Origin: an uncultured Bacteroides sp.
GTDB lineage: Bacteria > Bacteroidota > Bacteroidia > Bacteroidales > Bacteroidaceae
Assembly (NCBI GenBank): GCA_934716785.1
Contig: CAKUYM010000029.1
Coordinates: forward strand, 1 to 23,984
Direction: 5' to 3'
Length of the DNA stretch: 23,984 nt
Shown: positions 2,735 to 16,802 of the stretch, one piece after another
How the letters are laid out: every line of letters begins with the position of its first letter
Position numbering within the stretch: the stretch's first letter is position 1
The notes under the pieces: model-generated
Database searches by the model: none
The model's input: only the letters and a program-made list of their open reading frames with translations
Told to the model about the DNA's origin: nothing
Translations under genes and position numbers: made by a program

Positions 2735-2811
2735 AAAAAAGAGCGGAACAATGCTCATTGTACTCTCCTTTTTGTAAAAAAGAGAGTGCGGATTTGCATT
2801 GTTTCCACTCT
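2734..2811 (-). terminator. Terminator of the PUL operon, nested inverted repeats
   Basis: An outer inverted repeat, 2740-2754 against 2796-2811, pairs as AGAGCGGAACAATGC with GCATTGTTTCCACTCT (one bulge, one G-T type mismatch). Inside it is a second hairpin: ACTCTC-C-TTTTT (2762-2773) with AAAAA-A-GAGAGT (2776-2787) around a 2-nt loop. On the minus strand the outer stem ends in a run of six T. It lies between the last PUL gene and the purine permease promoter, so it should stop PUL transcripts. The double structure is larger than an ordinary terminator. Confidence 0.75.
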
Positions 2812-2836
2812 TTTCTCAACGACGCTCTCTCAGGGG

Positions 2837-4717
2837 TCAGAGGGGGGATTTAGCGTCTTTTCCAATCTGCTTGATGCAACGTATATATCGTTTATTTGTG
2901 GCTGTCTTTATCGGAGTGTCTGCCAAAGCACCGCAATAACGCTTGCCGAACCGCAAGTAAGAACCGTAGAGGTCATTCAGCTCTGTACTTCCCCAATACT
3001 GGTCACCGTTACCGGTAGTTGCCGTATTCAATTTCACACCTCCATGGTCGGTCAGTACTTTATCAAAAACTTCGCGGGCTGTTTTTTCGGCATCAGTTAT
3101 TTTGTCCGGAGTAGCATTTGTTGCCTTGTCGAACGTAGTACCGTTGTAAGCCTCAAACAAGGCCTTCAGTTCGTTGATGGCAGGCCAGTACCAGCCATTT
3201 TTGCAAAGTTTGATAGCTGGCACTTTCTCTTCGCCTTCTTTTATTAGCGTGGTGGTATTTGCCACCCCATTGTCCTCATCCGTCACATTATAACTCTTTT
3301 GCTCGGTGCTCCAAGCCTCTGTTGTTTCTGTACGTTCCAGACTGACAATCTTTGCTGTCTTTCCGTCTTCCGATACCCAAAATACGACTCCCTTAGTGTC
3401 TCCTTGCTCATAGTAACTGCCCACAGTATAGTCGGCTACAGGAGTAGCCAAGGCTTTTTGGCTAACGGAAACAGATATCGTATAATCTTTTTCGTCAGTA
3501 CCTTTCACAGTTATCAGTACGGTTGTTTCACGTGTTTTACCGCTGTCATTGTCCGATGTGGCTTTTATAGTCACTGTGTTGTCGCTCACTGTGGCGCTGC
3601 ACCAACTGTTATCCGCAGGAGTAGCTGTATAGATACTTCCGTTAGCTATTGTTGCCGTTACCGTCTGTTCGCTGTTTTGTACTCCTTCCAGTGTCACGTT
3701 CTCTTTATCAAGCTTGATGGATACAACGACGGGCTCCGGTCCCGGAGTGTAGTTGCCGATAACTTTGACACAGCGAATAAAACGTTTGGTTCCTGTCTTC
3801 TTGCACTGACCGGCACCCATGTTCACGGCAGGTACATAGAAGCGGAAGTTGCATCCGTACTTAGCATAACTCTCGTCGGAGTTGTCTTCAGTGCTTGCCC
3901 AATAGGACTCACCGTTGCCGGAAGTAGAGAGGTCGATGGCTGTGCCGCCGTTGTCGGTAAAGATCTTATCGAACTTGGCGCGGGCAATTTTCTCTTGGTC
4001 GTCTCCACCCGGTGTCTTCGAAGCCTCATCGAAACTGCGTCCGTTGTAGGCGGTAAAGAGGTCTTTCAGCTCCTCAATAGCCGGCCAATACCAACCTTCA
4101 CCGTGTGCGTCACAGAATTCCAGTGCCGGGATGCTGCCGCTCTTGCCCTCGTTACTGTTGCGTATGAGAGTGGTGTTGGTCTGTCCGTCCACCATGGAGT
4201 AGGCGCCGATGAAGGCTGTACCTTCAGTAGACCATGCTCCACCTAATCTGTCCAAAGAGACAGCCTTAGCTATAGTCTTGTCCGTCTTGTCCACCCAAAA
4301 AATGACGCCCACGGCTTTTCCCTCTTCATAATAAACATCTCCAATACTGAATTGCTGACCTTCCTCTTCTTCAAAGTAGGGAGGCATGAGCACCGTAACG
4401 GTAACATTCTCCGTTCCAATATGCAGTGTTACGGTCCCTGTCCGTTCAACACCGCTGTCATTTTGTTTATAGTTCAGGGTGAGGCATCGCCGGGTTACTT
4501 CGGCTGACAGCCATTCCTGGCAGTCGCCTGCCACAGTCGCACTCACTTGGTCTGTATTAGTCATCATCAAAATGTCAGTGCTGCCGGCTTTTCCGTTTTC
4601 CAACACAACGTCCGTTTGGTCTATGGAGTAGTGCACGGTTTCCTCTTTGTTGTCATCGCAGGCATGCAGACAGAGGCACACCAGCGCTATATACAGTAGA
4701 TTAAATATAGTCTTCAT
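2837..4717 (-). CDS. Surface lipoprotein with duplicated BACON + Lcl/DUF1566-like modules
   Basis: A 626-residue lipoprotein: a hydrophobic signal ends in LHAC with Cys20 as the lipidated residue, followed by DDNKEE, an acidic stretch typical of surface-exported Bacteroides lipoproteins. Four modules follow. These are a BACON-like beta domain (about 30-112), an Lcl/DUF1566-like domain (about 124-321), a second BACON-like domain (about 330-421) and a second Lcl-like domain (about 430-619). The repeats align clearly: GWYWPAIEELKDLF (208-221) with GWYWPAINELKALF (508-521), and KRFIRCVKVIG (311-321) with KRYIRCIKQIG (609-619). It is the last gene of the operon, 20 nt after susD, the usual place of a surface glycan-binding protein. 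By position it probably binds the target glycan outside the cell; no catalytic motif is visible. Module names are confident, the binding role is inference. Confidence 0.82.
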   Translation of the reverse strand: MKTIFNLLYIALVCLCLHACDDNKEETVHYSIDQTDVVLENGKAGSTDILMMTNTDQVSATVAGDCQEWLSAEVTRRCLTLNYKQNDSGVERTGTVTLHIGTENVTVTVLMPPYFEEEEGQQFSIGDVYYEEGKAVGVIFWVDKTDKTIAKAVSLDRLGGAWSTEGTAFIGAYSMVDGQTNTTLIRNSNEGKSGSIPALEFCDAHGEGWYWPAIEELKDLFTAYNGRSFDEASKTPGGDDQEKIARAKFDKIFTDNGGTAIDLSTSGNGESYWASTEDNSDESYAKYGCNFRFYVPAVNMGAGQCKKTGTKRFIRCVKVIGNYTPGPEPVVVSIKLDKENVTLEGVQNSEQTVTATIANGSIYTATPADNSWCSATVSDNTVTIKATSDNDSGKTRETTVLITVKGTDEKDYTISVSVSQKALATPVADYTVGSYYEQGDTKGVVFWVSEDGKTAKIVSLERTETTEAWSTEQKSYNVTDEDNGVANTTTLIKEGEEKVPAIKLCKNGWYWPAINELKALFEAYNGTTFDKATNATPDKITDAEKTAREVFDKVLTDHGGVKLNTATTGNGDQYWGSTELNDLYGSYLRFGKRYCGALADTPIKTATNKRYIRCIKQIGKDAKSPL

Positions 4718-4737
4718 TGTATTGTCTTTTTAAAAGG

Positions 4738-6354
4738 TTAGTTCCATCCGTCAGTCTGCGGGAAGTTATTAGCTCCCATTAGCAAAATCTGGTCGCTTGG
4801 AATAGGCCATTTATCGTGTTTGCCTTTGATGAAGTTTTTGCGCGCTTCGGTATAGTCTTTGTCCAAATAAGGATTTTCAGCTTTTGATTCACCCGAATAT
4901 TGCGTACAATACTTCTCAAGTAATCCCAAGCGTTTCAGCAAAGGCCAGCGCACGCCTTCAAAGTTCAGTTCGCGTGCGTACTCGTCCAGTATGTTCTCCA
5001 AGGTTAGTGTACCGGTGAATTCATCATTGCCGGCACGTTGGTAAGTCTTGTTGAAATACTTCAAGGCATTCGCATTGTCACCTTTGTGGAAGTAGGCCTC
5101 GGCGCACATCAAATATGTCTCTGCCAAACGATATACAATCAGGTCGCGGAAGCTTGACTGACGTGTGGGCAGGTCACTGTTGGTCCAGAAGTCAGCATGC
5201 TTGATAGACATAGGGTGCAGGCGTTGGCAATAGCTGGATCCTGCATCTTCCGGTTGGATAACTTCCCCATACTTGGGCGAAGTGGGATCATTGTACTTGA
5301 ACTGGTGGATGAACAGTGTGTTCTTACGGGTATCCTTTGCCGAATACAAGTCGAGCAGGTGCTGGTTGGGGTAGACGCGGCCGAAACCGTAGCCGCCTTG
5401 GTCGCTGGCACATACACAACCTTTCATGCTGCGATATTGTGAAGTGACATAGACAGAAATGGGGTGTCCTTTCAGTGTAGAACCGGTTACGGTGCCACCG
5501 CCACCTACATTTTTGGAGAACTGATAGGCGAACAGTACCTCCTTGGAACGCAAGTTCTCGCTTGAGAATACGCTTTCAGTGTTGGGTTCCAATTCGTAGT
5601 AAGCAGCACCATCGGTGAAGATGTCTTCGCACTGCTTGATGGCTGTATCCCAGTCCTTTTCCCACATGGCTACTTGTGCACGGATATGCTTGGCGGCCAC
5701 TTTAGTGTAGCGCCCATACATGGGACTGCCGTTGTAGGTGGGCAGTTCCCAACCAAGGCTTTCGACAGCTTCATCCAAGTCTTCTTTCACTACCTTGAAT
5801 ACTTCCTCGTTGGTGGCCGGCTTGTAGTCTCGGTTCAGATTGTTCACATTGGTTGCCTGCAGGTTCAGGTAGATGCGGTCATAGCGTTTCCACAACTCAA
5901 AAAACGAGCGACCACGAATCAGTTTCGCCTCTCCATAGATAGAACGGATATCTTTATCATTCAATCCCAACTGTTCGGCCGACTCAATAATCTCATTCGC
6001 CTTTCCGATAAGCGCATAGTGAAACTTCCAAAAGTCACTGCACTCCGGAGAGTCTGCATTCAGTTGGTCGAGACGTGCCACACGTGCACAGTTTCCGGCA
6101 CGGAACAGTATGAGGTCTGTGCTGAAGTCAAACGTCTGCAGCAGATAGACGATGGATTTCTCGTTCGAGTCGTCCACAATGTTGTTACGCTCGTAGATGT
6201 AAAGTCCGGCAATGGCTCTTTGCAATCCTTCCTTGGAGTCGTACAAATAATTATTCGTCACTTTCGTTTCCGATTCCAAATTCAGCAGATTATCGCATCC
6301 GCAAAAACTCAGGCCAATGAATCCGGCTATAAAATATGATGCTATTCTTTTCAT
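4738..6354 (-). CDS. SusD/RagB-family glycan-binding outer-membrane lipoprotein
   Basis: This 538-residue protein is the lid that captures oligosaccharides for its SusC partner at the outer membrane. The signal peptide ends FCGC with Cys20 lipidated. Typical SusD features follow: helical TPR-like N-terminal half (AIAGLYIYERNN, KANEIIESAEQL, EAKLIRGRSFFELWKRYD), then LRSKEVLFAYQFSK, and the C-terminal family block YRLAETYLMCAEAYFHKGD with ELNFEGVRWPLLKRLGLLEK. It ends with IPSDQILLMGANNFPQTDGW, the usual SusD finish. It starts 12 nt after susC, an invariant pairing in PULs. Substrate cannot be read from sequence; the operon suggests a GlcNAc-containing glycan. Confidence 0.96.
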   Translation of the reverse strand: MKRIASYFIAGFIGLSFCGCDNLLNLESETKVTNNYLYDSKEGLQRAIAGLYIYERNNIVDDSNEKSIVYLLQTFDFSTDLILFRAGNCARVARLDQLNADSPECSDFWKFHYALIGKANEIIESAEQLGLNDKDIRSIYGEAKLIRGRSFFELWKRYDRIYLNLQATNVNNLNRDYKPATNEEVFKVVKEDLDEAVESLGWELPTYNGSPMYGRYTKVAAKHIRAQVAMWEKDWDTAIKQCEDIFTDGAAYYELEPNTESVFSSENLRSKEVLFAYQFSKNVGGGGTVTGSTLKGHPISVYVTSQYRSMKGCVCASDQGGYGFGRVYPNQHLLDLYSAKDTRKNTLFIHQFKYNDPTSPKYGEVIQPEDAGSSYCQRLHPMSIKHADFWTNSDLPTRQSSFRDLIVYRLAETYLMCAEAYFHKGDNANALKYFNKTYQRAGNDEFTGTLTLENILDEYARELNFEGVRWPLLKRLGLLEKYCTQYSGESKAENPYLDKDYTEARKNFIKGKHDKWPIPSDQILLMGANNFPQTDGWN

Positions 6355-6366
6355 GATGTTGCTTCT

Positions 6367-9300
6367 TTAAAATGACAGATTAACTCCAAATACATATTGC
6401 TGTGACTCCGGATAGGCGCTACCTACCACTTCGGGACTGTAAGACCATACGTTGGTGAATGTGAGTAGGTTGGTTGCAGTCGCATACACGCGCAGCTTGG
6501 AGCAACGCAGTTTGGTGGTGAGTTTCTGCGGCAGCGTATAGCCTATTTGTAGCGTACGTAGGCGCAGGTAGGAAGCGTCTTGATAAGACATGGAGCGCAG
6601 ATAGGGGATATCCATGCCGTAGGTGGGACGGGGGAACTCGTTGGTGGGGTTGTTGGGCGTCCAGTAGTTCACCTTCATACCGTTGTTCTTTCCGCGCAAG
6701 TTGCCTCCATATTCTCCGTCGTAGAGCAATGGGTTGCGGATGTACCCTCCGGACACGGCATACCAGTCCATGTACAGGTCGAAGTTCTTCCAAGTGAGAT
6801 TGGACGAGAGCGATACGGTGAAATCCGGGTCACGCTTGTATACTACACGGTCTTCTTCATTAATTTTGTTGTCACCATTGATGTCACGCAGTTTTATACT
6901 ACCCGGTTCCACTACGTCAGTACGTTTTACCACAGCATCGGGTTTTCCGTCATGGTCGGTGTCTACGGTTGGTTTTAGCTCGTAGGAAAGTGCACCCGAT
7001 TCGTCCTTGGTGATATAGAAGTCGTCATATTGGTATACGCCGTCTGCTTTGTAGTCATAGTAGGCGTTGATAGGTGAACCTACAATCCAACCGTTACCCG
7101 GTTGGCTCATCGGTTTCCCGTTTTCATCCACTTGATCGTCAATCTTTACTATCTTGTTTTTGAAGTGGCTGAAGTTCACTGTGGCTGTCCATGTCAGGTC
7201 TTTGCGGCTTATCAGTTCGCCTGTGATGCCCACATCAATACCTTGCGATTTTGTTTCGCCCAAGTTGTCGAGCATAGAGGTGTAGCCCAACGATGCATTT
7301 AGCATGCGTGATACCAGTAGGTCGGTGGTGCGGGTATGGTAATATTCCACTGTTCCTGTCAATCGGTTGCCGAACAGTCCGAAGTCTACACCGATGTTGG
7401 CAGTGGCAGATCTTTCCCACTTTAAGTTAGGATTGGAGAGCACAGTTCCCGGTAGGTAGCCCATGTAGTAAGTATCGCCAAACTCGCCTTCTAAACTCTT
7501 GGCCAGCCCCAATGTGGTGTAATTGTCTATACCGTTCTGGTTGCCTACGATACCGTAGCTTACACGCAGTTTTAGGTTGTCCACCCATTCGGCTTTTTGC
7601 ATAAATGCCTCTTGGTTGATACGCCATGCCAGTGCGACAGACGGGAAGTTGCCCCATTTGTTGTTCTTTCCGAAACGACTGGAACCGTCTCGACGGTAGG
7701 CTACGTTGAGCAGGTAGCGATCTTTGAATCCATATTGTGCTCTCAGCAGCATAGATACTAAGTTGTTGCGGCTATAGTCGCGTTGCTGGTTGTTCACCTC
7801 TCCGTTGGCAATGAAGTTGTATCCCAAGTCTATCGGCATGTTCTGTGCACTGTATCCCAAGCCTTTGGAGAGTGACTTGTCTACCGACTGTACTCCCGTG
7901 ATGTTCAACTTATGGTCGCGGCTGCGGAAAGGAACATCATATTTCAACACGTTTTCTATCAGTTGGTTGGTAGTGGTGCTATTGTCGATAGAAGCAGTGG
8001 AACCTCCACCTAAATATTCTACATCACGTGCACGTCCTTCCTCATTGACACGGTTGTAGTAAGAGATGTTAAACTGATAAGTGAATCCGTTGAATAGTTT
8101 GAAGAGGGCGAAAGCATTGAAACGGTAGCTGTTTGTCTTCGATTCATGCGATTCATGTTGTGCATTGAATAGCGGGTTTTTGTCTCCCTCGCTATTGATG
8201 TAAGAAGTATAACTCCCATCGGGATTGTAGACTGTGGCGAGTGGGGTACGTGTTATGAACTGGTAGAATGAACCGTTCTCGATGGCTCGTGTGGAGAATC
8301 CTAACGAACCGTTTACACCCAAAGTCAGCCATTTGCGTATATCATAGTCTAAATTGATACGGCTACTCAGACGCTCGAAGTTGGAGTTCTGCTTTATCAG
8401 GCCGTCTTGGTAGAAATAGCCTACGCTGACAGCCGCTTTCAGTTTCTCCGTGCCACCTCTGAAGCTCACTTCGTGACTATGGTAGAGAGCTGCTTTTTTG
8501 AACATCAAGTCTTCCCAGTCGATGAACCGTCCGTTCTTGTAAGCTTCCTGCATCTCCTCATCACTCAAGGCGGTAGAGATAGGCAATTCGTTGGCTTGTA
8601 TATAGCCCATGTCGTGTGCTTTCGCTTCGCGTCGCATAGCTACCCATTCGTCTCCTGTATAGTAGTCGAAGTTGCGGTGCAGATGCTGGAAGCCTACGTA
8701 GCCGTTATAATTTATTTTGCAATCACCACTTTTGCCTCGCTTGGTGGTCACTAAGATGACACCATCGCTGGCACGTGCGCCGTAGATGGCTTGTGAGGCG
8801 GCATCTTTCAGTACTTCAATGGATTCGATATCATTGGAGTTGATCATGGCAAACTCTGTGTCACTTGCCACACTTCCATCGATGACGTAGAGCGGTGTAT
8901 TGCTGGCTGAAATGGAGCGTGTGCCACGTATCTTGATGGAAGGAACAGTGCCCGGCTGGCCGGATGAACTGGTCACCGTTACGCCCGGTGCACGTCCACG
9001 TAGCATTTCGGCTGCATTGGAAGCCGGGAAGTTTTTCATATCATTGGTATTGACCGATGTGATAGAGGTTGCCACATCACTCTTGCGCATCGTACCATAT
9101 CCCACTATCACCACATCATTAAGCACTTGGCTTTCCGATTCCATCTCTACATTGATAACATTACGTCCGTTCACGGCTATCTCTTGGTTTTTATAACCCA
9201 AGTAGCGAAATACCAAGGTGGCATTCGGTTCTACCTTGATGCTATATTTTCCGTCTACATCGGTAATAGTTCCACTGGTGGCACCTTTTAATGTAACGGT

Positions 9301-9447
9301 AGCGCCAATCACCGGAACGGTTTTTCCGTTTTCGCTTTTCTCTGTAACGGTACCTGTCACAGTATGCGCATTTTGTGCGGCTATACTCTGCATCAGGCAT
9401 AGCATACAGATAATAAACATCCATTTAATCGCTTTGTATGATCCCAT
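6367..9447 (-). CDS. SusC/RagA-family TonB-dependent outer-membrane transporter
   Basis: A 1026-residue TonB-dependent importer of oligosaccharides. It has a signal peptide cleaved near SIAAQ (about 24), a carboxypeptidase-regulatory-like domain (about 29-102), the SusC TonB-box region DVVIVGYG (111-118), a plug domain (about 120-238) containing ASNTPLYVIDGS and VLKDAASQAIYGARASDG, and then a large beta-barrel ending VFGVNLSF with terminal Phe, as usual for outer-membrane barrels. A D-rich stretch (DTDHDGKPD, then DINGDNKINEEDR) is the calcium-loop-like segment often seen in SusC proteins. There is no STN domain before the regulatory domain, so it should not signal to an anti-sigma factor; that fits regulation by the nearby XylR-type protein. 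It lies 58 nt after the GH18-like gene and is followed by susD. Confidence 0.96.
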   Translation of the reverse strand: MGSYKAIKWMFIICMLCLMQSIAAQNAHTVTGTVTEKSENGKTVPVIGATVTLKGATSGTITDVDGKYSIKVEPNATLVFRYLGYKNQEIAVNGRNVINVEMESESQVLNDVVIVGYGTMRKSDVATSITSVNTNDMKNFPASNAAEMLRGRAPGVTVTSSSGQPGTVPSIKIRGTRSISASNTPLYVIDGSVASDTEFAMINSNDIESIEVLKDAASQAIYGARASDGVILVTTKRGKSGDCKINYNGYVGFQHLHRNFDYYTGDEWVAMRREAKAHDMGYIQANELPISTALSDEEMQEAYKNGRFIDWEDLMFKKAALYHSHEVSFRGGTEKLKAAVSVGYFYQDGLIKQNSNFERLSSRINLDYDIRKWLTLGVNGSLGFSTRAIENGSFYQFITRTPLATVYNPDGSYTSYINSEGDKNPLFNAQHESHESKTNSYRFNAFALFKLFNGFTYQFNISYYNRVNEEGRARDVEYLGGGSTASIDNSTTTNQLIENVLKYDVPFRSRDHKLNITGVQSVDKSLSKGLGYSAQNMPIDLGYNFIANGEVNNQQRDYSRNNLVSMLLRAQYGFKDRYLLNVAYRRDGSSRFGKNNKWGNFPSVALAWRINQEAFMQKAEWVDNLKLRVSYGIVGNQNGIDNYTTLGLAKSLEGEFGDTYYMGYLPGTVLSNPNLKWERSATANIGVDFGLFGNRLTGTVEYYHTRTTDLLVSRMLNASLGYTSMLDNLGETKSQGIDVGITGELISRKDLTWTATVNFSHFKNKIVKIDDQVDENGKPMSQPGNGWIVGSPINAYYDYKADGVYQYDDFYITKDESGALSYELKPTVDTDHDGKPDAVVKRTDVVEPGSIKLRDINGDNKINEEDRVVYKRDPDFTVSLSSNLTWKNFDLYMDWYAVSGGYIRNPLLYDGEYGGNLRGKNNGMKVNYWTPNNPTNEFPRPTYGMDIPYLRSMSYQDASYLRLRTLQIGYTLPQKLTTKLRCSKLRVYATATNLLTFTNVWSYSPEVVGSAYPESQQYVFGVNLSF

Positions 9448-9505
9448 AGTCCGTAGATTTTTTATTGTATTATAGATGATTTTTCTGTTTTATGGCAGTT
9501 TCTCT

Positions 9506-10612
9506 TTATTCTGCCTTTTCCCACATACTCTCCAATCCTTCGTAGTTGAAGACATCAAATCCTCGGAAGGAGCCGTATGCTTTGCCTTTCTCCATGATGT
9601 ATCGGGCTGTCTCCAGCAGATACTGCCATCCCTTGGGCTGTAGCCCGTCACCTTCATCATTGTTTACGGCTGTCTTTACACATACGCTTACGCTCTGCGG
9701 CTTTTCTTTAGCTGCGGCAAGTGAAGGCTCGCTCTTGGACCAGATATCTTCTTTATTTCCCAAGTAGGACATCAACACCACCCAATCGCAAGAGGCCAAA
9801 AACTGTGGCATGGTGCCGTAGGACAGTTTGTTGGCATTGGCTTGAATTTGGAAGTTATAGGACACGGCTTCGCTGAGCTGCGGCGCTTGCTTCGTCATTA
9901 GCCCCTTTGCCTTTTGCAGGCGTTCGAGGGTGAGTTGCAGCAACTTGTCGTTGGCTCCACCTACTCCATAACCAGTCTGGCTATTCCATTCGTAGGTCAG
10001 GGCGGCAGGCTTGCTGCTTCCTTTGCAGGTGTGGGGTTCCAAGTCAGCTGCGATGCCATAGAACCGTTCGTCCGGAGCCACTGCATTGTTGTAGGTCTTG
10101 ATAAGTTCTACTTCTGTCTCCACTTTGGCTTCGTTGACATAGATACTGTTATCGGCAATGCGGAGGGCGTGCGTTTGGATACCGTAGCCTTTTAAGGTGG
10201 CGATGAAGGTACGTAGCCAAGGCGTGGCACCGGTTATCTGCTCCTTACCGGGTGAGAGGTACACATCGTTGAATCCTAATACGGCGATGCGTGCAGCAAG
10301 CTGTTCGGGATGCTCATTGTACATATTCACAGACTTGGAGTAGACATACACTCCGTTGCGTCCACCATCACCTCGGTATGTACTTTGGCGGTATTGCTCG
10401 GCATTCTCTTTCATCTTCTCCGTGATGTTTGCTGCGGCGATGCATTCGTCCGTCACCAGTACATCTTTCCGGCTGTTGTCTATGATTTGATCTTGAATTT
10501 CTTCATAGGTAGAGCCGTAGCTCGTGTTGTTGCTTTCGCAGGCCGAAAAGGCCATGAAAACAACGGCAACCAACAATAGAATTCTTTTCATCGTATAAAA
10601 TGTTTTTTTCAT
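9506..10612 (-). CDS. Lipoprotein with degenerate GH18-like TIM-barrel domain
   Basis: A 368-residue lipoprotein: signal ending AFSAC with Cys25, then SNNTS. The body looks like an alpha/beta barrel (ARIAVLGFNDVYLSPG, TFIATLKGYGIQTHALRI). FYGIAADLEPH at 184-194 matches the end of the GH18 signature (G-[ILV]-x-x-D-x-E), keeping D190 and E192, the position of the catalytic acid, but with Tyr and Ala at the two earlier Asp positions. VVLMSYLGN (278-286) resembles the GH18 strand-6 M-x-Y motif. So it may be a GlcNAc-releasing endo- or exo-enzyme, or a binding protein derived from one. It lies between GH20 and susC in the operon. A second possible start, M8 (ATG at 10589-10591), gives a more usual signal-peptide length. 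Family placement is by motif only. Confidence 0.6.
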   Translation of the reverse strand: MKKTFYTMKRILLLVAVVFMAFSACESNNTSYGSTYEEIQDQIIDNSRKDVLVTDECIAAANITEKMKENAEQYRQSTYRGDGGRNGVYVYSKSVNMYNEHPEQLAARIAVLGFNDVYLSPGKEQITGATPWLRTFIATLKGYGIQTHALRIADNSIYVNEAKVETEVELIKTYNNAVAPDERFYGIAADLEPHTCKGSSKPAALTYEWNSQTGYGVGGANDKLLQLTLERLQKAKGLMTKQAPQLSEAVSYNFQIQANANKLSYGTMPQFLASCDWVVLMSYLGNKEDIWSKSEPSLAAAKEKPQSVSVCVKTAVNNDEGDGLQPKGWQYLLETARYIMEKGKAYGSFRGFDVFNYEGLESMWEKAE

Positions 10613-10639
10613 TTAAAGTCAGTATTCTGTATGAAAGAG

Positions 10640-12184
10640 TTAGGGCAGTTGCGTGATGAGGCACTGATGAATCCGCCGCATCTTCGTCACATAGTCCCAT
10701 GTACCAAAGCTTGCTCCCGGATTTTTCAGGTATCCCGCATTCAACCTTTCAAACTGCTTGCGCAATCCTTCACTCTCCTTTATGAGTCGCCTCAGTTTCT
10801 CTGCATAAGGTTTCCGCAGAGAGGCATCGAATCGGTCTGACTCAATAACCTTTTCCGATTGTTTGAACTTCAGATAATTGATCCGTATATCCAACATCAG
10901 TAGCAAATGGCGGAAATCTTCCGCATTCTGTTTGGGGGTGAGTTTACCAAAACGCAGTCGCATGTCTGTACATTGCTCCATCGCTTGTTCTATCTTCGTG
11001 GCATCCGTCTGAGGCAAGGAGACCATATCCTGTGGCATGAACAGATAATCGGTCAAAGTATTCACTCCTGCTTCATCGAAGCCGAAATGTTCCTTTCCGT
11101 ATTTACTTATAAAGTTTTGTGCATTCCACTTCTCGTTTTTCAGAGCATCTGCATATGCCCGTTGCAGGATATCGAATCCAGCTAACGGATATACTTGGCG
11201 CACAGGTTGCAGGTCCATTACTTCCCATCCATTGTCGAAAATGTATCCGTAGCGGCCGGAAGTACTCCAAGAGGTGTTGATGAAGCCTGTATAGCCATGC
11301 TCTCTCGCAAAGGGGATGAACGTAGACAGGTTCTCGAAATGTTTGCCCCATTGTGTCAGGTAAACATTGTCGGGCGAAGAACGCAAAGCGGAGGCGCCCC
11401 ACACGGTGAATCCCTGTTGCACTAAAGTGTCCACATTGCCGAAATGCTTGGAATTCCATCCGTAGTTCCAATCTATTATGACAGTTTCGGACGGTATCTC
11501 GCTCAGGGCTTCGGGATGTTGCAGAATCATGTCGGCCCATATGATAGGCTTCTTGCCCATGTCCAGCACCAGTTTGCACATTTCCTTTATATAGTCTACA
11601 AACAACTTGGAGATGCCTTGCTTTTCCATTTTCAGTTTGCAGTGCTTGCAGTTTCCCAACAATCGGGTCTCGTCCGCACCAATGTGGAAGTAGGGCGAGG
11701 GGTGTAGGCGTGCCACTTCGCGGAATATTTCACTGAACACTTGCTTTGCCTCTTCAGTGCGCATCGGGCATACTTGTGACATGTCACTTTTGCTTTCGCG
11801 CAGGGTGGCATAGCGGTCGTGCTGCAGGATGTATTCGCAGTGGCCGAAGCAGTTTTGCAGCGGTATTACGTCCACTCCCACAGAAGTGCAATACTGCACA
11901 AAGTCATTCACTTCATCGGCAGTAAAATGGTATGCGTTGCACAGTGTGGCATGTTTGTCAAACGGGAAAGAGGCTTCATACTCCATAACCACCGTGTTGA
12001 TGCCTTCGGCAGCCGCTTTCTTTACCGTTGATTTCAGTGCCGGCAGTGTCATTACCTGCGTGCGCATATCTATATAGATACCTCTCACGGCAAACTCATT
12101 TGTCTGCACGGCGGCGTAGACGGAGACTGAGGCAAGACAGCAGGCAAGCAGCAGACCGATAACTTTTTGATATAGCTTGAACAT
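10640..12184 (-). CDS. GH20 exo-beta-N-acetylhexosaminidase
   Basis: Predicted to cleave terminal beta-linked GlcNAc or GalNAc from glycans by substrate-assisted catalysis. Its 514 residues carry an export signal (residues 1-24, ending VYAA; LLAC at 12-15 could alternatively be a lipobox). The hallmark HIGADE lies at 167-172, with D171-E172 as the polarising Asp and acid/base Glu. VIPLQNCFGHCEYIL (106-120) and WNYGW (239-243) fit the GH20 barrel. There is no separate GH20b domain before the barrel, so it belongs to the single-domain group. A CKHC cysteine pair (179-182) just after the catalytic motif could bind metal or form a disulfide. The gene ends 27 nt before the GH18-like gene and starts 22 nt after nagB, within the operon. 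Release of GlcNAc here feeds the neighbouring nagP-nagA-nagB genes. Confidence 0.9.
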   Translation of the reverse strand: MFKLYQKVIGLLLACCLASVSVYAAVQTNEFAVRGIYIDMRTQVMTLPALKSTVKKAAAEGINTVVMEYEASFPFDKHATLCNAYHFTADEVNDFVQYCTSVGVDVIPLQNCFGHCEYILQHDRYATLRESKSDMSQVCPMRTEEAKQVFSEIFREVARLHPSPYFHIGADETRLLGNCKHCKLKMEKQGISKLFVDYIKEMCKLVLDMGKKPIIWADMILQHPEALSEIPSETVIIDWNYGWNSKHFGNVDTLVQQGFTVWGASALRSSPDNVYLTQWGKHFENLSTFIPFAREHGYTGFINTSWSTSGRYGYIFDNGWEVMDLQPVRQVYPLAGFDILQRAYADALKNEKWNAQNFISKYGKEHFGFDEAGVNTLTDYLFMPQDMVSLPQTDATKIEQAMEQCTDMRLRFGKLTPKQNAEDFRHLLLMLDIRINYLKFKQSEKVIESDRFDASLRKPYAEKLRRLIKESEGLRKQFERLNAGYLKNPGASFGTWDYVTKMRRIHQCLITQLP

Positions 12185-12206
12185 GTGAGTTAGAAGTTGA
12201 TAAACC

Positions 12207-12974
12207 TTATTCTATAATGTATTTTCCGCTATCACTGTCTACATAAAGCGTGGCATAGCCATGTCTCCGCAATATGGAAGCCGGACAGGCGGGAGATACC
12301 TCTCCGTAGACTGTAGATTTCACGGCTTGTGCCTTGGTAGCGGCAGGTACGATACAGAATATCCTGTCGGCAGAGAACAACGTAGGAATGGTGAGGGTCA
12401 GTGCATAGAGTGGCACTTCGTCCAAGTTAGCGAAGCAACCGTCATGTACTTGTTGTTGGCGGCATACCAAGCCCAAATCTACTTTCTTGATGCATTGTGG
12501 GTCACTGAAGTCTGCCACATGCGGGTCGTTGAAAGCGATGTGTCCGTTCTCGCCGATACCCATAAATACGATGTCAATAGGGTGCTCTGCGAGCAATTTC
12601 TCATAATCGGCACATGCTCGTTCGGGGTCTTTTTCCGTACCTATATAGTTCACGGAAGCAAAAGGAACCTTATCGAAGATGCTGCGTTTCAAAAAATTGC
12701 CGAATCCTTGCGGGGCATCAGCGGCAAGCCCCACATACTCGTCCATGTGTAAGGCATGCACACGCTGCCAGTCGATGCCTGGTGCGGCAGCCAGTCCTGC
12801 CAGAAACTCGTTTTGAGAGGGTGCGGCGGCAAATATGGCATATACCTCTTTTTTATGGGCGAGAAGATGTCTCAAATATGCGGCAGCTTCTATTGCGGCG
12901 TTCTGCCCCATTTCTGTTCTCGAATCGTACACGTTGACGATGAGCTGATCTGTTTTGAATGTTCTGCTTAACAT
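12207..12974 (-). CDS. nagB: Glucosamine-6-phosphate deaminase-like protein (NagB family), divergent
   Basis: Predicted to convert glucosamine-6-phosphate to fructose-6-phosphate and ammonia in the cytoplasm. Its 255 residues show the NagB/SugarP-isomerase fold with HMDEYVGL (76-83; D78 equals the catalytic base D72 of E. coli NagB) and GIGENGHIAFNDP (139-151; H145 equals H143). Relative to E. coli NagB, D141 is Asn (N143) and E148 is Asp (D150). The protein is shorter than the usual 265-270 residues. The gene overlaps nagA by 7 bp (ATG inside nagA's last codons, ATGTTAA), so translation is probably coupled. The nagA pairing argues for a true GlcN6P deaminase; another sugar-phosphate isomerase or deaminase remains possible because of the altered residues. 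Confidence 0.87.
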   Translation of the reverse strand: MLSRTFKTDQLIVNVYDSRTEMGQNAAIEAAAYLRHLLAHKKEVYAIFAAAPSQNEFLAGLAAAPGIDWQRVHALHMDEYVGLAADAPQGFGNFLKRSIFDKVPFASVNYIGTEKDPERACADYEKLLAEHPIDIVFMGIGENGHIAFNDPHVADFSDPQCIKKVDLGLVCRQQQVHDGCFANLDEVPLYALTLTIPTLFSADRIFCIVPAATKAQAVKSTVYGEVSPACPASILRRHGYATLYVDSDSGKYIIE

Positions 12975-14164
12975 GATTTCTTTGTATAAATAGTGGTTCC
13001 GTTAATGATAGTTCGCTGTATATCGATATTGTTGTCGAAGATGACGAGGTCGGCATCCATTCCTTTCTTAATGCTCCCCTTATGGTGGTCGGCATGCATG
13101 ATGTGTGCAGGCGTTTCCGTCATCATACGTACCGCATCAAACAGTGTGACGTTTCCTTCGCGTATTACGGTGCGTACAAGCCGGTCGGCAGTAGCCACAC
13201 TGCCTGCAAAGGCCGAGCGGTCCAGCAACTTTGCCACGCCGTCTTCCACGATTACTTCCTGTCCTTCTGTCAGACTGCCTAAAATGCTTTTGCCTTCAGG
13301 CATACCGGCAGCACGCATGGAGTCTGTAACCAGAGCGATACGTTCGGGACCTTTGATTTTAGTTACCAACTTTAACAGTGATGAGGGTACGTGGATGCCG
13401 TCAGCGATGATTTCAATGGTCGCATTATCTTCGTAATAGCCAAACTCCAGTACGCCTGCATAGCGGTAGGCGTTTCGCCGGGTTACGGTACTCATACACG
13501 AATAGAAGTGAGTAAGATGGGTCATTCCATACTCGTAAGCTTGTTGCATCTCTTCGAAAGTGGCGTTGGTGTGTGCGGCAGCTACCAGAATGCCCCGTTC
13601 GCACAACACTTTGATAAATTCTTCCGAACCGGGAAGTTCCGGAGCCAGGCTCCAACGTGCAATACTGTCTGTGCGGTTCAGAATTTCCATATACTCTTCA
13701 GGTTTGGGCGTGCGTAGATGACTCTTGTCTTGAGCACCTCCCTGCTCTGGTGAGAAGTAAGGCCCTTCAAGGTGCAGACCTCCCAGTTGTGCTCCGTCAA
13801 CATTCCGTTTTTGGGCATCATGATAAATGTCGAATGTATCGAAGAGAACTTGGTTGCTGCTGGTCAGTGTAGTGGGGTAGAGCAAGGTGGTGCCGTGTGT
13901 GGCGTGCATACGTGCCACGGTGAGGAAAGCCTTGACGCTTCCGTCCATGAAGTCTGCCCCACCGGCTCCATGGGTGTGTAGGTCTATGAAACCGGGTGAA
14001 ACAAAGTTATTTCCGGCATCAATAATGTTCACTCCTTCGGCCAGTGTGGGGGTACCGTTCAGCACGTCCACAATCTTTCCATTTGCCATGAGCACGCACC
14101 CTTGTTCGATGATGCGTGACGGAGTAATGATGTTTCCGTTAATAATAGCGCAATCGATATTCAT
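12968..14164 (-). CDS. nagA: N-acetylglucosamine-6-phosphate deacetylase
   Basis: NagA removes acetate from GlcNAc-6-phosphate, giving GlcN-6-phosphate for NagB. The 398-residue amidohydrolase shows GFIDLHTHG (58-66), HLEGPYF (131-137, with metal-ligand E133), AAHTNA (196-201, H198), MTHLTH (214-219, H216) and catalytic D281 in ALVTDSM. These match the single-metal NagA active site. In the usual THLFNAM segment this protein has THLTHFYSCM, a local variation. Family length is normal (about 380-400). It lies 14 nt after nagP and overlaps the next gene by 7 bp, so it is clearly part of the operon. Starts at MNIDCAIINGNI, a normal amidohydrolase N-terminus. Confidence 0.94.
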   Translation of the reverse strand: MNIDCAIINGNIITPSRIIEQGCVLMANGKIVDVLNGTPTLAEGVNIIDAGNNFVSPGFIDLHTHGAGGADFMDGSVKAFLTVARMHATHGTTLLYPTTLTSSNQVLFDTFDIYHDAQKRNVDGAQLGGLHLEGPYFSPEQGGAQDKSHLRTPKPEEYMEILNRTDSIARWSLAPELPGSEEFIKVLCERGILVAAAHTNATFEEMQQAYEYGMTHLTHFYSCMSTVTRRNAYRYAGVLEFGYYEDNATIEIIADGIHVPSSLLKLVTKIKGPERIALVTDSMRAAGMPEGKSILGSLTEGQEVIVEDGVAKLLDRSAFAGSVATADRLVRTVIREGNVTLFDAVRMMTETPAHIMHADHHKGSIKKGMDADLVIFDNNIDIQRTIINGTTIYTKKSC

Positions 14165-14178
14165 AACTCTTATTATTT

Positions 14179-15516
14179 TTATTTAGCTGAAGCTTTTCTG
14201 CTCCAATGGTTTATTTTATGCCCGTAAAGAGCGTAGTATATCATGAACAGGAAGCAGGGTATCAGCACCCAATAGGCTGTGTGAAGGTCACCCGTCAGGT
14301 CGGCCACATAGCCGTAGACCAATGGCAGCAGGGCATTGCCGCAAAGTCCCATCACTAATAATGACGAACCGATGTTGGTGAAGCGTCCCAAGTCGTGGAT
14401 GGCGAGTGGCCATATCCCGGCATAAATCACAGAGTTGGGAATGCCAAGCAATACTAAGAACCAGATGGATATGTGTGTCCGGAAACCGAATAAGGTGATT
14501 TCACCCGGCATGAAGAGTACACATAGCGACAGTACAAGTCCGGTGATGGTAGCTATCACCAACGCTTTCTGCTGTGACAGGTATTTGGGTATCAGGCACA
14601 CTCCGCACAGATATCCTATCAGGATACAAGCCAATGTGGCAGAGGGGAATACTTTGGCATCAAGCATTGAGATGCCCATACTTTCGGCATAACCTATAAT
14701 GGTATTAATGGAAATCACTTGTGAACCTACATGGAACATCAAAGCCACTGCGCCTAATATGAGGTAAGGGTAGGCAAAGACAGATTTCCTGTCCTCCGTT
14801 CCTTCCGTGGAGGGTTTACTGTCTTTGTTGGGGTTGATGTTTGGGATGGATGATCTGCTGAACACAATTCCAAACAGGAAAAGCAGTATGGCAAGGGCGC
14901 AGTAGGGAGGTACCACTCCGCGTATCAGTTCGTTTAGGGCTTGCTCTTTGGCAGCTCCGTCCAACAGATTCTGGCTGATTTGTTCCATGATTATTTTGTC
15001 GGACGGCTTGATGACGAGGAAGGCGAACACCAACGGTGCGATGATGCCGGCAAACTTGTTGCAGATGCCCATGATACTGATGCGGCGTGCTGCGCTTTCG
15101 ATGGGGCCGATGATGGTGACGAACGGATTGGCGGCTGTTTGCAGCACAGCCAGTCCGGTGCCCATGATGAAGAGGGCCAATAGAAACATATTATAGGTGC
15201 GTGTGTAGGCTGCCGGCATGAACAGCAAAGCTCCCAAGGCTAATATCCAAAGTCCGTATTTCACTCCATTTTTGAAGCCAATGCGGTTGAGAAGAATAGA
15301 AGCCGGGAAGGCCATTACCAAATAGGCAATGTAAAATGCGAAATTAGCCAAATAGCTCTGCACTTCGCTTTGTAGTTCGCAGGCTATCTTGAAGTAGGGG
15401 ACCAAGATGGAATTTACCCACGACACCAAGCCGAATATGAAGAATAATAATCCGAGCATGACAAGTGAGACGAAATAGTGTCTTTTGCTCATAGACAGGT
15501 TGTTGGATGAACTCAT
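14179..15516 (-). CDS. nagP: FHS-family sugar/H+ symporter, probable GlcNAc transporter NagP
   Basis: Inner-membrane major facilitator protein of 445 residues with about 12 hydrophobic segments, of the fucose-galactose-hexose symporter group. Landmarks are VSLVMLGLLFFIFGLVSWVN near the start, VQSYLANFAFYIAYLVMAFP, and VLQTAANPFVTIIGP in the central N-half, all typical of FucP/GluP/NagP proteins. Association with nagA, nagB and GH20 points to GlcNAc as cargo rather than fucose or glucose. It is the first gene of the operon and follows a promoter with a possible operator (15545-15577). MFS import leaves the sugar unphosphorylated, so a GlcNAc kinase is required; none is in the window. Specificity is inferred from context. 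Confidence 0.85.
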   Translation of the reverse strand: MSSSNNLSMSKRHYFVSLVMLGLLFFIFGLVSWVNSILVPYFKIACELQSEVQSYLANFAFYIAYLVMAFPASILLNRIGFKNGVKYGLWILALGALLFMPAAYTRTYNMFLLALFIMGTGLAVLQTAANPFVTIIGPIESAARRISIMGICNKFAGIIAPLVFAFLVIKPSDKIIMEQISQNLLDGAAKEQALNELIRGVVPPYCALAILLFLFGIVFSRSSIPNINPNKDSKPSTEGTEDRKSVFAYPYLILGAVALMFHVGSQVISINTIIGYAESMGISMLDAKVFPSATLACILIGYLCGVCLIPKYLSQQKALVIATITGLVLSLCVLFMPGEITLFGFRTHISIWFLVLLGIPNSVIYAGIWPLAIHDLGRFTNIGSSLLVMGLCGNALLPLVYGYVADLTGDLHTAYWVLIPCFLFMIYYALYGHKINHWSRKASAK

Positions 15517-15544: not shown

Positions 15545-15577
15545 CAAATATAGAGCAAGCATATTGGCTTGATATAT
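15545..15577 (-). promoter_or_regulatory. Candidate PUL operon promoter with overlapping imperfect palindrome
   Basis: On the minus strand TATATTTG (15545-15552) is a perfect -7 box about 28 nt before the nagP ATG, but there is no TTTG 19-20 nt upstream. Instead an imperfect palindrome centred at 15563/15564 (CAAGC-6 nt-GCTTG, extended to 15550-15577 with two mismatches) fills the -7 to -33 space. That is where a regulator could act in place of the missing -33 contact. The regulator identity (XylR-type protein next door) is inference. Confidence 0.5.
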
Positions 15578-15653: not shown

Positions 15654-16802
15654 TTAAAGGCCTGTGTCTCCCTTCCGGCGATATTCCTCCGGTGTACAGT
15701 TTTTGTATTTCTTGAAGATATGCGTCACGTTGTTGTAGTCTTTAAAGCCCACTTCGATGCTCAGGTCGCGCAAGGAGCGCCGGGTGGAGAGCAACAGACC
15801 TGCCAGCAGATTGCAGCGACATATTAATATATATTGGTAGATAGAGACTTTCATCGTTTGCTTGAATTTAATCTCTATGCTCCGGCGCGACAATGGAATG
15901 TCGGCAAGCATGGACTCGATGGAGAGATTGGATAGCGTGTAGTGATTGTCAATGTAGCGCACTACCTCTCGTACATGAGGGTCGGAGATGTTATATTTTT
16001 CGGTAGATTGCCGTAATTCAATGCGGATGGGCTTGATGACGATATTGAAGTTGCTGTTGTATTCTTTTTTCAACTGCATGTCTATTAGCTTTCCCATCAT
16101 GTAGCCGCCCCGTTCAATACCCAACTCAATGGAAGAAATGGGAGGATCTGAAATATGGCACATCAGCTCATCGTTGTCCACCCCTAACAAGGAAATTTCT
16201 TCAGGAATGCGGATGCCGCTCATCTTGCAGGTCTCAGAAATGAACAAGGCATATGCGTCATCGCAGCAAAACAGGGCAACGGGCTTGGGCAGTCGTTGTA
16301 GCCATGAGGTTACGTCAGCTCTTATCTCAGCTTCCTGTTTGTCTGACTCGAAACAGTAGAAATATCCTCCGGCATGTGTCACTTCCTGCTGATATCCTTC
16401 GCGCCGTTCATCGGACCACACTATTCCTTTCACGCCGCAGTAGGCAAAGTTGCGGAACATCCTTTTGATAAAGAACTGTGCTGCCATCTTGCCCGTTTCC
16501 TTGTAGTCGCCGGTCAGATTGGAGTAGGTGATACTGCGGTGATGATAGTTCTGTAGCGCCACAGGAATGTCCAGTTCTTTCAGTAAGTCCATTTTCTCAT
16601 TGTCCCATTTGCCCACAATGGCATCAGCTTTCCATTCTTTGGCCCAGTTGAGAATACCTTGTTCTCCATACATCTCTATATAATAGGTGGGAAGCCGGTA
16701 GAAAAGCCACGGTCCTTTTTCTTTGGAATATTGCACCAGTCCTCGGAGTAGTTTCCTGTCAAAATCGCTGGAGTAGTCTATCAATAGAAGAATCTTAATC
16801 AT
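15654..16802 (-). CDS. XylR-type hybrid regulator (LacI-like sensor + AraC HTH)
   Basis: A 382-residue cytoplasmic regulator. The N-terminal about 265 residues are a periplasmic-binding-protein-like ligand domain (MIKILLLIDYSSDFDRKLLR at the start, FFIKRMFRNFAYCGVKG, FCCDDAYALFISETC, LLGVDNDELMCHISDPPISS). The last about 100 form an AraC helix-turn-helix pair (LSIESMLADIPLSRRSIEIK and SLRDLSIEVGFKDYNNVTHI). This layout is that of XylR and related sugar-sensing activators. An earlier in-frame TTG at 16839-16841 adds 13 residues, but it lies inside the TACATTTG promoter box; I therefore start at the ATG at 16800-16802, which also gives the family's usual N-terminus and has AAAGGA upstream. It lies 137 bp before nagP on the same strand with no terminator between, and probably senses GlcNAc or a derivative. 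Confidence 0.88.
   Translation of the reverse strand: MIKILLLIDYSSDFDRKLLRGLVQYSKEKGPWLFYRLPTYYIEMYGEQGILNWAKEWKADAIVGKWDNEKMDLLKELDIPVALQNYHHRSITYSNLTGDYKETGKMAAQFFIKRMFRNFAYCGVKGIVWSDERREGYQQEVTHAGGYFYCFESDKQEAEIRADVTSWLQRLPKPVALFCCDDAYALFISETCKMSGIRIPEEISLLGVDNDELMCHISDPPISSIELGIERGGYMMGKLIDMQLKKEYNSNFNIVIKPIRIELRQSTEKYNISDPHVREVVRYIDNHYTLSNLSIESMLADIPLSRRSIEIKFKQTMKVSIYQYILICRCNLLAGLLLSTRRSLRDLSIEVGFKDYNNVTHIFKKYKNCTPEEYRRKGDTGL

Follow-up and report, generated by a model that had tools for sequence, protein, structure and literature searches.

The question raised by this locus is whether a single unit of a Bacteroides genome can hold both the proteins that capture a glycan at the cell surface and the enzymes that break down the N-acetylglucosamine (GlcNAc) within it. 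The locus lies in a stretch of 23,984 nucleotides from an uncultured Bacteroides sp. (contig CAKUYM010000029.1, assembly GCA_934716785.1), and this whole stretch is called the window. According to the open reading frame positions, eight genes on the minus strand run from 15516 to 2837. Their order, 5' to 3' on that strand, is major facilitator superfamily (MFS) transporter, nagA, nagB, GH20, GH18L, susC, susD, and lipoprotein. GH18L is the name used here for the lipoprotein gene, and its product, that a first-pass annotation of the window had called GH18-like. The eight genes read as one operon. The identical order was found in five other assemblies, which argues against a chance arrangement; the operon is real and conserved. 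Surface capture is merged with a transporter, a deacetylase, and a deaminase in one conserved unit, as the first-pass annotation had proposed. With a probability of about 0.7, the operon is a Bacteroidales-type polysaccharide utilization locus (PUL) for a beta-GlcNAc-containing glycan, with the flow of import and catabolism set out below. The earlier suggestion of a beta-GlcNAc oligosaccharide as the target is a fair one.

The genes are closely packed. The gaps are 14 bp (MFS to nagA), 22 bp (nagB to GH20), 27 bp (GH20 to GH18L), 58 bp (GH18L to susC), 12 bp (susC to susD), and 20 bp (susD to lipoprotein), and nagA and nagB overlap by 7 bp. The range of spacing on one strand reported earlier, from a 7-bp overlap to a 58-bp gap, is borne out by these coordinates. 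A pattern scan of the minus strand, from the regulator through the purine-type permease downstream of the operon, found six copies of TAnnTTTG, which we take to be the Bacteroidales -7 box. Three are intergenic, one each upstream of the regulator, MFS, and permease genes; the other three are intragenic, in nagA, nagB, and the permease. Within this range no box was found at the junction between the nag and sus halves. The box ahead of the MFS gene is not accompanied by a TTG at the usual -33 spacing. The 87 nt downstream of the last gene give a predicted fold that was equalled by 4 of 200 shuffles. This fold is terminator-like, as claimed earlier, but the word "strong" is a reading and not a test, because the U-run is paired within the fold and a consensus terminator scan listed no entry after the last gene. 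The box pattern and the fold are compatible with a single transcript, but they do not prove one. The positions of the features are collected in Table 1.

Table 1 Features of the GlcNAc locus, with their positions in the window and the evidence for each.
Feature	Position	Strand	Evidence
XylR-type regulator	15654..16802	-	PF13377 97.6 bits and PF12833 49.9 bits; ATG at 16802
Putative operon promoter, TATATTTG	15545..15552	-	-7 box consensus match only; 29 nt before MFS start
MFS sugar transporter, NagP-like	14179..15516	-	NF046060 348.6 bits; TIGR01272 gluP 223
nagA, N-acetylglucosamine-6-phosphate deacetylase	12968..14164	-	TIGR00221 278 bits vs cut-off 225.65
Divergent nagB-like glucosamine-6-phosphate deaminase	12207..12974	-	PF01182 61.3 bits; TIGR00502 110
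GH20 beta-hexosaminidase, catalytic domain only	10640..12184	-	PF00728 70.6 bits; signal peptide by eye
GH18L, putative lipoprotein (Cys25), predicted TIM barrel, 368 aa	9506..10612	-	D190-x-E192, M281-x-Y283
susC-like TonB-dependent outer-membrane transporter	6367..9447	-	TIGR04056 875 bits vs cut-off 368.25
susD-like surface lipoprotein	4738..6354	-	PF07980 97.1 bits, PF14322 49.3 bits
Putative surface lipoprotein, putative glycan-binding, 626 aa	2837..4717	-	PF13004 (BACON) 41.5 bits vs 25, two stretches
Terminator-like hairpins and U-runs, after last gene	2750..2836	-	Fold -22.2 kcal/mol, z -2.39

The gene-content marks of a Bacteroidales PUL are present. A susC gene is next to a susD gene, both over their cut-offs (TIGR04056, PF07980), and they are linked to a glycan-active enzyme, GH20, and to a XylR-type regulator. 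The regulator, 137 bp upstream of the operon and on the same strand, agrees with the first call. In the Pfam scan it combines Peripla_BP_3 (a LacI-type sensor) with an AraC helix-turn-helix domain, which we take to be the XylR architecture. In L001 and L021, a regulator with 66-67% identity likewise precedes the operon (L numbers denote loci, and G numbers genomes, of the comparison set). The 626-aa lipoprotein has, besides BACON, a match to Lcl_C (DUF1566, PF07603) of 28.1 bits, under the cut-off of 34.9. BACON and Lcl_C-like parts form a tandem repeat in its predicted structure model, and the precomputed domains of many homologues include both. Foldseek with this model returned mostly tandem Ig-like or cadherin chains, with a query TM below 0.2 in all 50 rows shown, and nothing specific.

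The gene families named in the first pass hold overall. However, the NagP and NagB calls are under their equivalog cut-offs, GH20 is a catalytic domain only, and neither Pfam nor NCBIfam gave a match to the GH18-like protein (16 window proteins were scanned against the two databases). NagA is over the cut-off of its equivalog model TIGR00221, and it does not reach a second model, NF008371 (216.8 vs 483). Its structure matches are NagA structures (best 3egj, E 2.9e-48), and its motifs are kept in the alignment of relatives. The MFS protein is over the gluP cut-off of 202.55, and under the NagP equivalog cut-off of 625. Similarly, the NagB-like protein is under the TIGR00502 equivalog cut-off of 236.9; its closest structures are glucosamine-6-phosphate deaminases. 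Its motif in the window is GHIAFND. All 17 members of its alignment have FNDP, versus FNEP in the two best structure matches, with D at the position equivalent to E148 of NagB, presumably in E. coli numbering.

The copy number of these genes was determined in 12 related genomes (10 with GH18L and 2 without). The PUL nagA is the sole TIGR00221 match over cut-off in 11 of them; the exception is B. gallinarum, with three. The PUL nagB is the sole Glucosamine_iso protein in 2 of the 12. The nag genes are probably no extra copy, and the PUL seems to carry the main GlcNAc-6-phosphate (GlcNAc-6-P) deacetylase. Since the PUL nagA is the only one in most relatives tested, general growth on GlcNAc probably depends on the operon. 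Separately, the nagA of G516 (L037:5918-6805), the only one over cut-off in that genome, is broken by an in-frame TAG, which is an error or decay.

The two putative glycan-cleaving enzymes differ in how well they match known families. GH20 is over the PF00728 cut-off of 22.3 bits and contains HIGADE and DWNYGW; the Pfam scan gave no GH20b match. HIG[AGC]DE and DWNYGW are present in 23 of 24 GH20 rows, the window included, and the 24th, L022, ends with its contig. The closest structure is Trichuris suis HEX-2 (8qk1, E 5.4e-19), of GH20 subfamily 1, which shares with the window protein the lack of a GH20b match, the D-E pair, and W-N-Y (PMC11308363). In contrast to HEX-2, the window GH20 is bacterial and has its own C-terminal part beyond the Pfam model, and any placing of it in subfamily 1 is tentative.

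The predicted TIM barrel of GH18L resembles that of the GH18 glycoside hydrolases in having D-x-E after strand 4 and M-x-Y after strand 6, and both pairs are invariant across 42 GH18L sequences. However, GH18L matched no Pfam family even at E 10 and no NCBIfam model, and a PF00704 match was absent from all eight operon proteins at E 0.001 and from GH18L even at E 10. Instead of the GH18 motif DxxDxDxE, the window protein reads YxxAxDxE. The two earlier aspartates are replaced, and only the last D and the E are invariant in the 42 sequences; D, D, D, and E are all invariant in the 27 sequences of the comparison GH18 set. The term GH18-like is valid only as a resemblance at the level of the predicted fold. 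The GH18L family is conserved and probably secreted. Three longer homologues of 623-637 aa were found (P0075, P0077, and P0079), and P0075 has weak CBM_4_9 and secretion-tail matches under cut-off. The fold matches of the predicted GH18L structure include Cwp19, SleL, and PgaB. Poly-GlcNAc was considered as a target owing to the PgaB match. A peptidoglycan target, prompted by Cwp19 and SleL, was rejected: no MurNAc-specific match was found in the 16 window proteins, and such folds are widespread.

The distribution of the operon was determined by a scan of named genomes with GH20, which gave 22 loci, and by a GH18L profile. The profile matched 4 of 393 genomes in the order of G001, 2 of 7 in the family of G001, and 8 of 299 in the family of G005; these sets overlap. 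One of the four is a weak match in G207 (L026, E 1.8e-4), which is excluded from all counts. Strong GH18L matches are present in twelve other genomes (L001, L021, L009, L036, L037, L038, L039, L040, L041, L042, L043, and L002), and the first five of these loci have the eight-gene order of the window. GH20 adjoins GH18L in all twelve, as the two-domain kind in L043. The MFS-nagA-nagB block is beside the GH20-GH18L pair in ten; L039 is a 4.7-kb contig and too short, and L002 is without the block. In L043, a tandem pair of GH18L genes (8809-11042) and two two-domain GH20 genes were observed in the same cluster. The MFS-nagA-nagB-GH20 core is also found without GH18L, each time with nagX, in six loci (L003, L004, L006, L007, L010, and L011), two of which have a GH2 with an exo-beta-glucosaminidase Ig domain. 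Not included in the core-locus counts are L022 and L012, both on short contigs, the Opitutales loci that lack nag genes, and Alistipes L008, L019, and L020, where MFS and nagA are about 8 to 9 kb from GH20. The same GH20 occurs in Opitutales metagenome-assembled genomes (MAGs; L013-L017), with no nag or sus gene matches in the DNA stretches examined.

PULs with built-in GlcNAc catabolism are already known. The only close case that titles, abstract openings, and text passages brought up is the chitin utilisation locus (ChiUL) of Flavobacterium johnsoniae, in which SusC/SusD, GH20, an MFS inner-membrane transporter, and NagB are likewise in one locus, and in which an MFS deletion mutant fails with chitin and GlcNAc, and with glucose too (PMC5127042). 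The two loci differ in several parts. The ChiUL has GH18 chitinases, namely ChiA with two GH18 domains and a second GH18, where the window has GH18L; it has two SusC/D pairs and a two-component regulator, where the window has one pair and a XylR-type regulator; and its eleven listed genes include no nagA, which the window has (PMC5127042). Set against the parts of a chitin utilisation locus, the window has GH20, MFS, and NagB, the NagB-like and MFS proteins being under equivalog cut-offs, and lacks a GH18 chitinase. Another close system is L003 of Bacteroides cellulosilyticus DSM 14838, with a homologous MFS-nagA-nagB-GH20 core (52-59% identity) and a susC gene upstream. In contrast to the window, L003 contains nagX and a true GH18 as well as an additional GH20 with two domains, but no GH18L in the stretch examined, and its SusC is 27% identical to that of the window over part of the length. 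The first-pass annotation had set this locus apart from PULs whose monosaccharide catabolism is left to core genes. That contrast is weaker as novelty, because the F. johnsoniae locus already has MFS, NagB, GH20, GH18, and SusC/D (PMC5127042). It is stronger as biology, because the genomes of relatives usually yielded no nagA beyond that of the PUL.

From the observed gene order, families, and conservation, we infer the following metabolic flow. SusD and the BACON/Lcl_C lipoprotein would bind the glycan outside the cell, where the lipoprotein GH18L may make an endo cut at GlcNAc. SusC would import the oligosaccharides, a periplasmic GH20 would remove terminal GlcNAc, and the MFS protein would carry GlcNAc to the cytoplasm, to be converted to GlcNAc-6-P by a kinase whose gene lies elsewhere. 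NagA and the NagB-like deaminase would turn this into fructose-6-phosphate. The XylR-type regulator presumably senses a sugar from this flow. The kinase is needed because a sugar imported by an MFS transporter arrives unphosphorylated and the substrate of NagA is GlcNAc-6-P, so that a phosphorylation step is required in between.

Several observations weigh against this assignment. A scan of 16 window proteins turned up no kinase family, and a ROK query gave no window match; the frame at the window edge (3-599), outside the protein scan, resembles queA, judging by its letters. The earlier descriptions "self-contained" and "complete" GlcNAc catabolism are therefore too strong. ROK-family proteins are present in all 15 related genomes searched (8 + 7); with this single query, which a very distant ROK could escape, L011 (B. 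gallinarum) was the only locus to show one next to the block, and in the other relatives the ROK genes are elsewhere in the genome. All statements on copy number rest on relatives and not on the window's own genome, and many of those assemblies are drafts or MAGs of completeness not given, so that absences are provisional. Besides the PUL nagB, 10 of the 12 relatives have one to four further Glucosamine_iso proteins. For GH18L, a profile of the 42 sequences searched against solved structures returned no glycosidase, the probability in the GH18L-GH18 profile comparison is low (8.4), and catalysis is suggested by two motifs and a common fold. In addition, NagP and NagB are far below their equivalog cut-offs, which makes another amino sugar possible. 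The sugar could then be N-acetylgalactosamine (GalNAc), and HEX-2, the closest structure to GH20, prefers aryl beta-GalNAc in vitro, with a site said to fit both sugars (PMC11308363). This reading is very unlikely, even with such divergent NagB-like and MFS proteins, given that NagA is over the cut-off for GlcNAc-6-P deacetylase, that nagB models give the NagB-like protein 110-113 versus 66 for galactosamine-6-phosphate isomerase, and that no agaS-type match was found in the 16 window proteins scanned. The clustering of nagA and nagB is also a published sign for GlcNAc (PMC5583593).

If the glycan contains beta-GlcNAc, which glycan is it? Chitin or chitooligosaccharide is a tentative answer, at somewhat under even odds, and is the main alternative to a GlcNAc/uronate glycan. 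The operon would then be a chitin utilisation locus of a gut type, in which GH18L takes the place of the GH18 chitinase. The sister loci L003, L006, and L010 join the nagX-MFS-nagA-nagB-GH20 core to a GH18 and a susC gene; the GH18 of L003 matches PF00704 with 147.1 bits, and those of L006 and L010 are assigned by 65% identity. GH18L and matches to the L003-type GH18 never occur in the same locus among those examined. NagX is reportedly frequent in chitin operons (PMC9007349), and the F. johnsoniae locus is a precedent (PMC5127042). However, the window operon has no GH18 profile match, two residues of the GH18 motif are missing from GH18L, and nagX was found in only 2 of the 12 GH18L genomes in the DNA stretches examined. 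Moreover, GH18L goes with hexuronate genes in 6 of the 12, and chitin has no need of these.

In those six genomes the operon adjoins the hexuronate genes, which points there to a GlcNAc/hexuronate heteroglycan, hyaluronan- or heparosan-like or a bacterial exopolysaccharide, with GH18L cutting at GlcNAc beside uronate. In G001 and G008 the operon runs on into nagX-uxuB-uxuA (mannonate oxidoreductase and mannonate dehydratase). In G462, G509, G572, and G590, genes for a SASA esterase, uxuB, and uxuA come after GH18L, with a heparinase II/III-type lyase upstream, and the last three genomes also have a 2-keto-3-deoxygluconate (KDG) kinase; the families were tested on L040 and extended to L038, L041, and L042 by similarity. 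Mannonate dehydratase and oxidoreductase genes are by the GH18L operon at L044:16224-18293 and L045:16868-18943, and in L038 and L040-L042. The adjoining uxuA is the only uxuA of the genome in all six. In G584, where the contig is 4.7 kb long, genes for SASA, KDG kinase, and 2-keto-3-deoxy-6-phosphogluconate aldolase are by GH18L. In the stretches examined, none of the six GH18L-free core loci has uxuA, uxuB, or the lyase (a 23% lyase match in L019, about 7 kb from its GH20, was not counted). Lcl C-terminal domains also bind sulphated glycosaminoglycans (PMC11162425). For the window itself such a target is nevertheless doubtful. Neither the window nor L009, L036, L037, L043, or L002 showed a uronate gene or lyase, and three of these five relatives have the exact order of the window. 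The six genomes belong to two families, and so represent only about two independent events. UxaC was not found in G462, G509, G572, or G590, which leaves the route from hexuronate to mannonate unclear there. The window Lcl_C match is under cut-off, and the chains that Lcl binds are sulphated. A bolder proposal, which we consider unlikely, is that GH18L is the founding member of a glycosidase family not yet described. It would be a substrate-assisted endo-hexosaminidase, would have taken the place of GH18 in this lineage of PULs, and would cleave at GlcNAc beside hexuronate; the PUL would thereby feed on a GlcNAc/uronate heteroglycan, and the same operon would hold the only GlcNAc-6-P deacetylase of the cell.

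Elsewhere in the window, an ORF6N-domain gene at 590-1012 encodes only the second half of the domain (profile positions 44-86 of 86). It adjoins a tRNA-Pro gene (1085-1159) and is possibly a remnant of a mobile element.

Two parts of the PUL stand out most: a nagA that is apparently single and a barrel family without a name. GH18L combines an invariant pair that looks catalytic with the lack of any Pfam or NCBIfam match, and its gene neighbours hint at which glycans to try. If the PUL nagA is the sole copy, growth on GlcNAc from any source would hang on one operon tied to one glycan.

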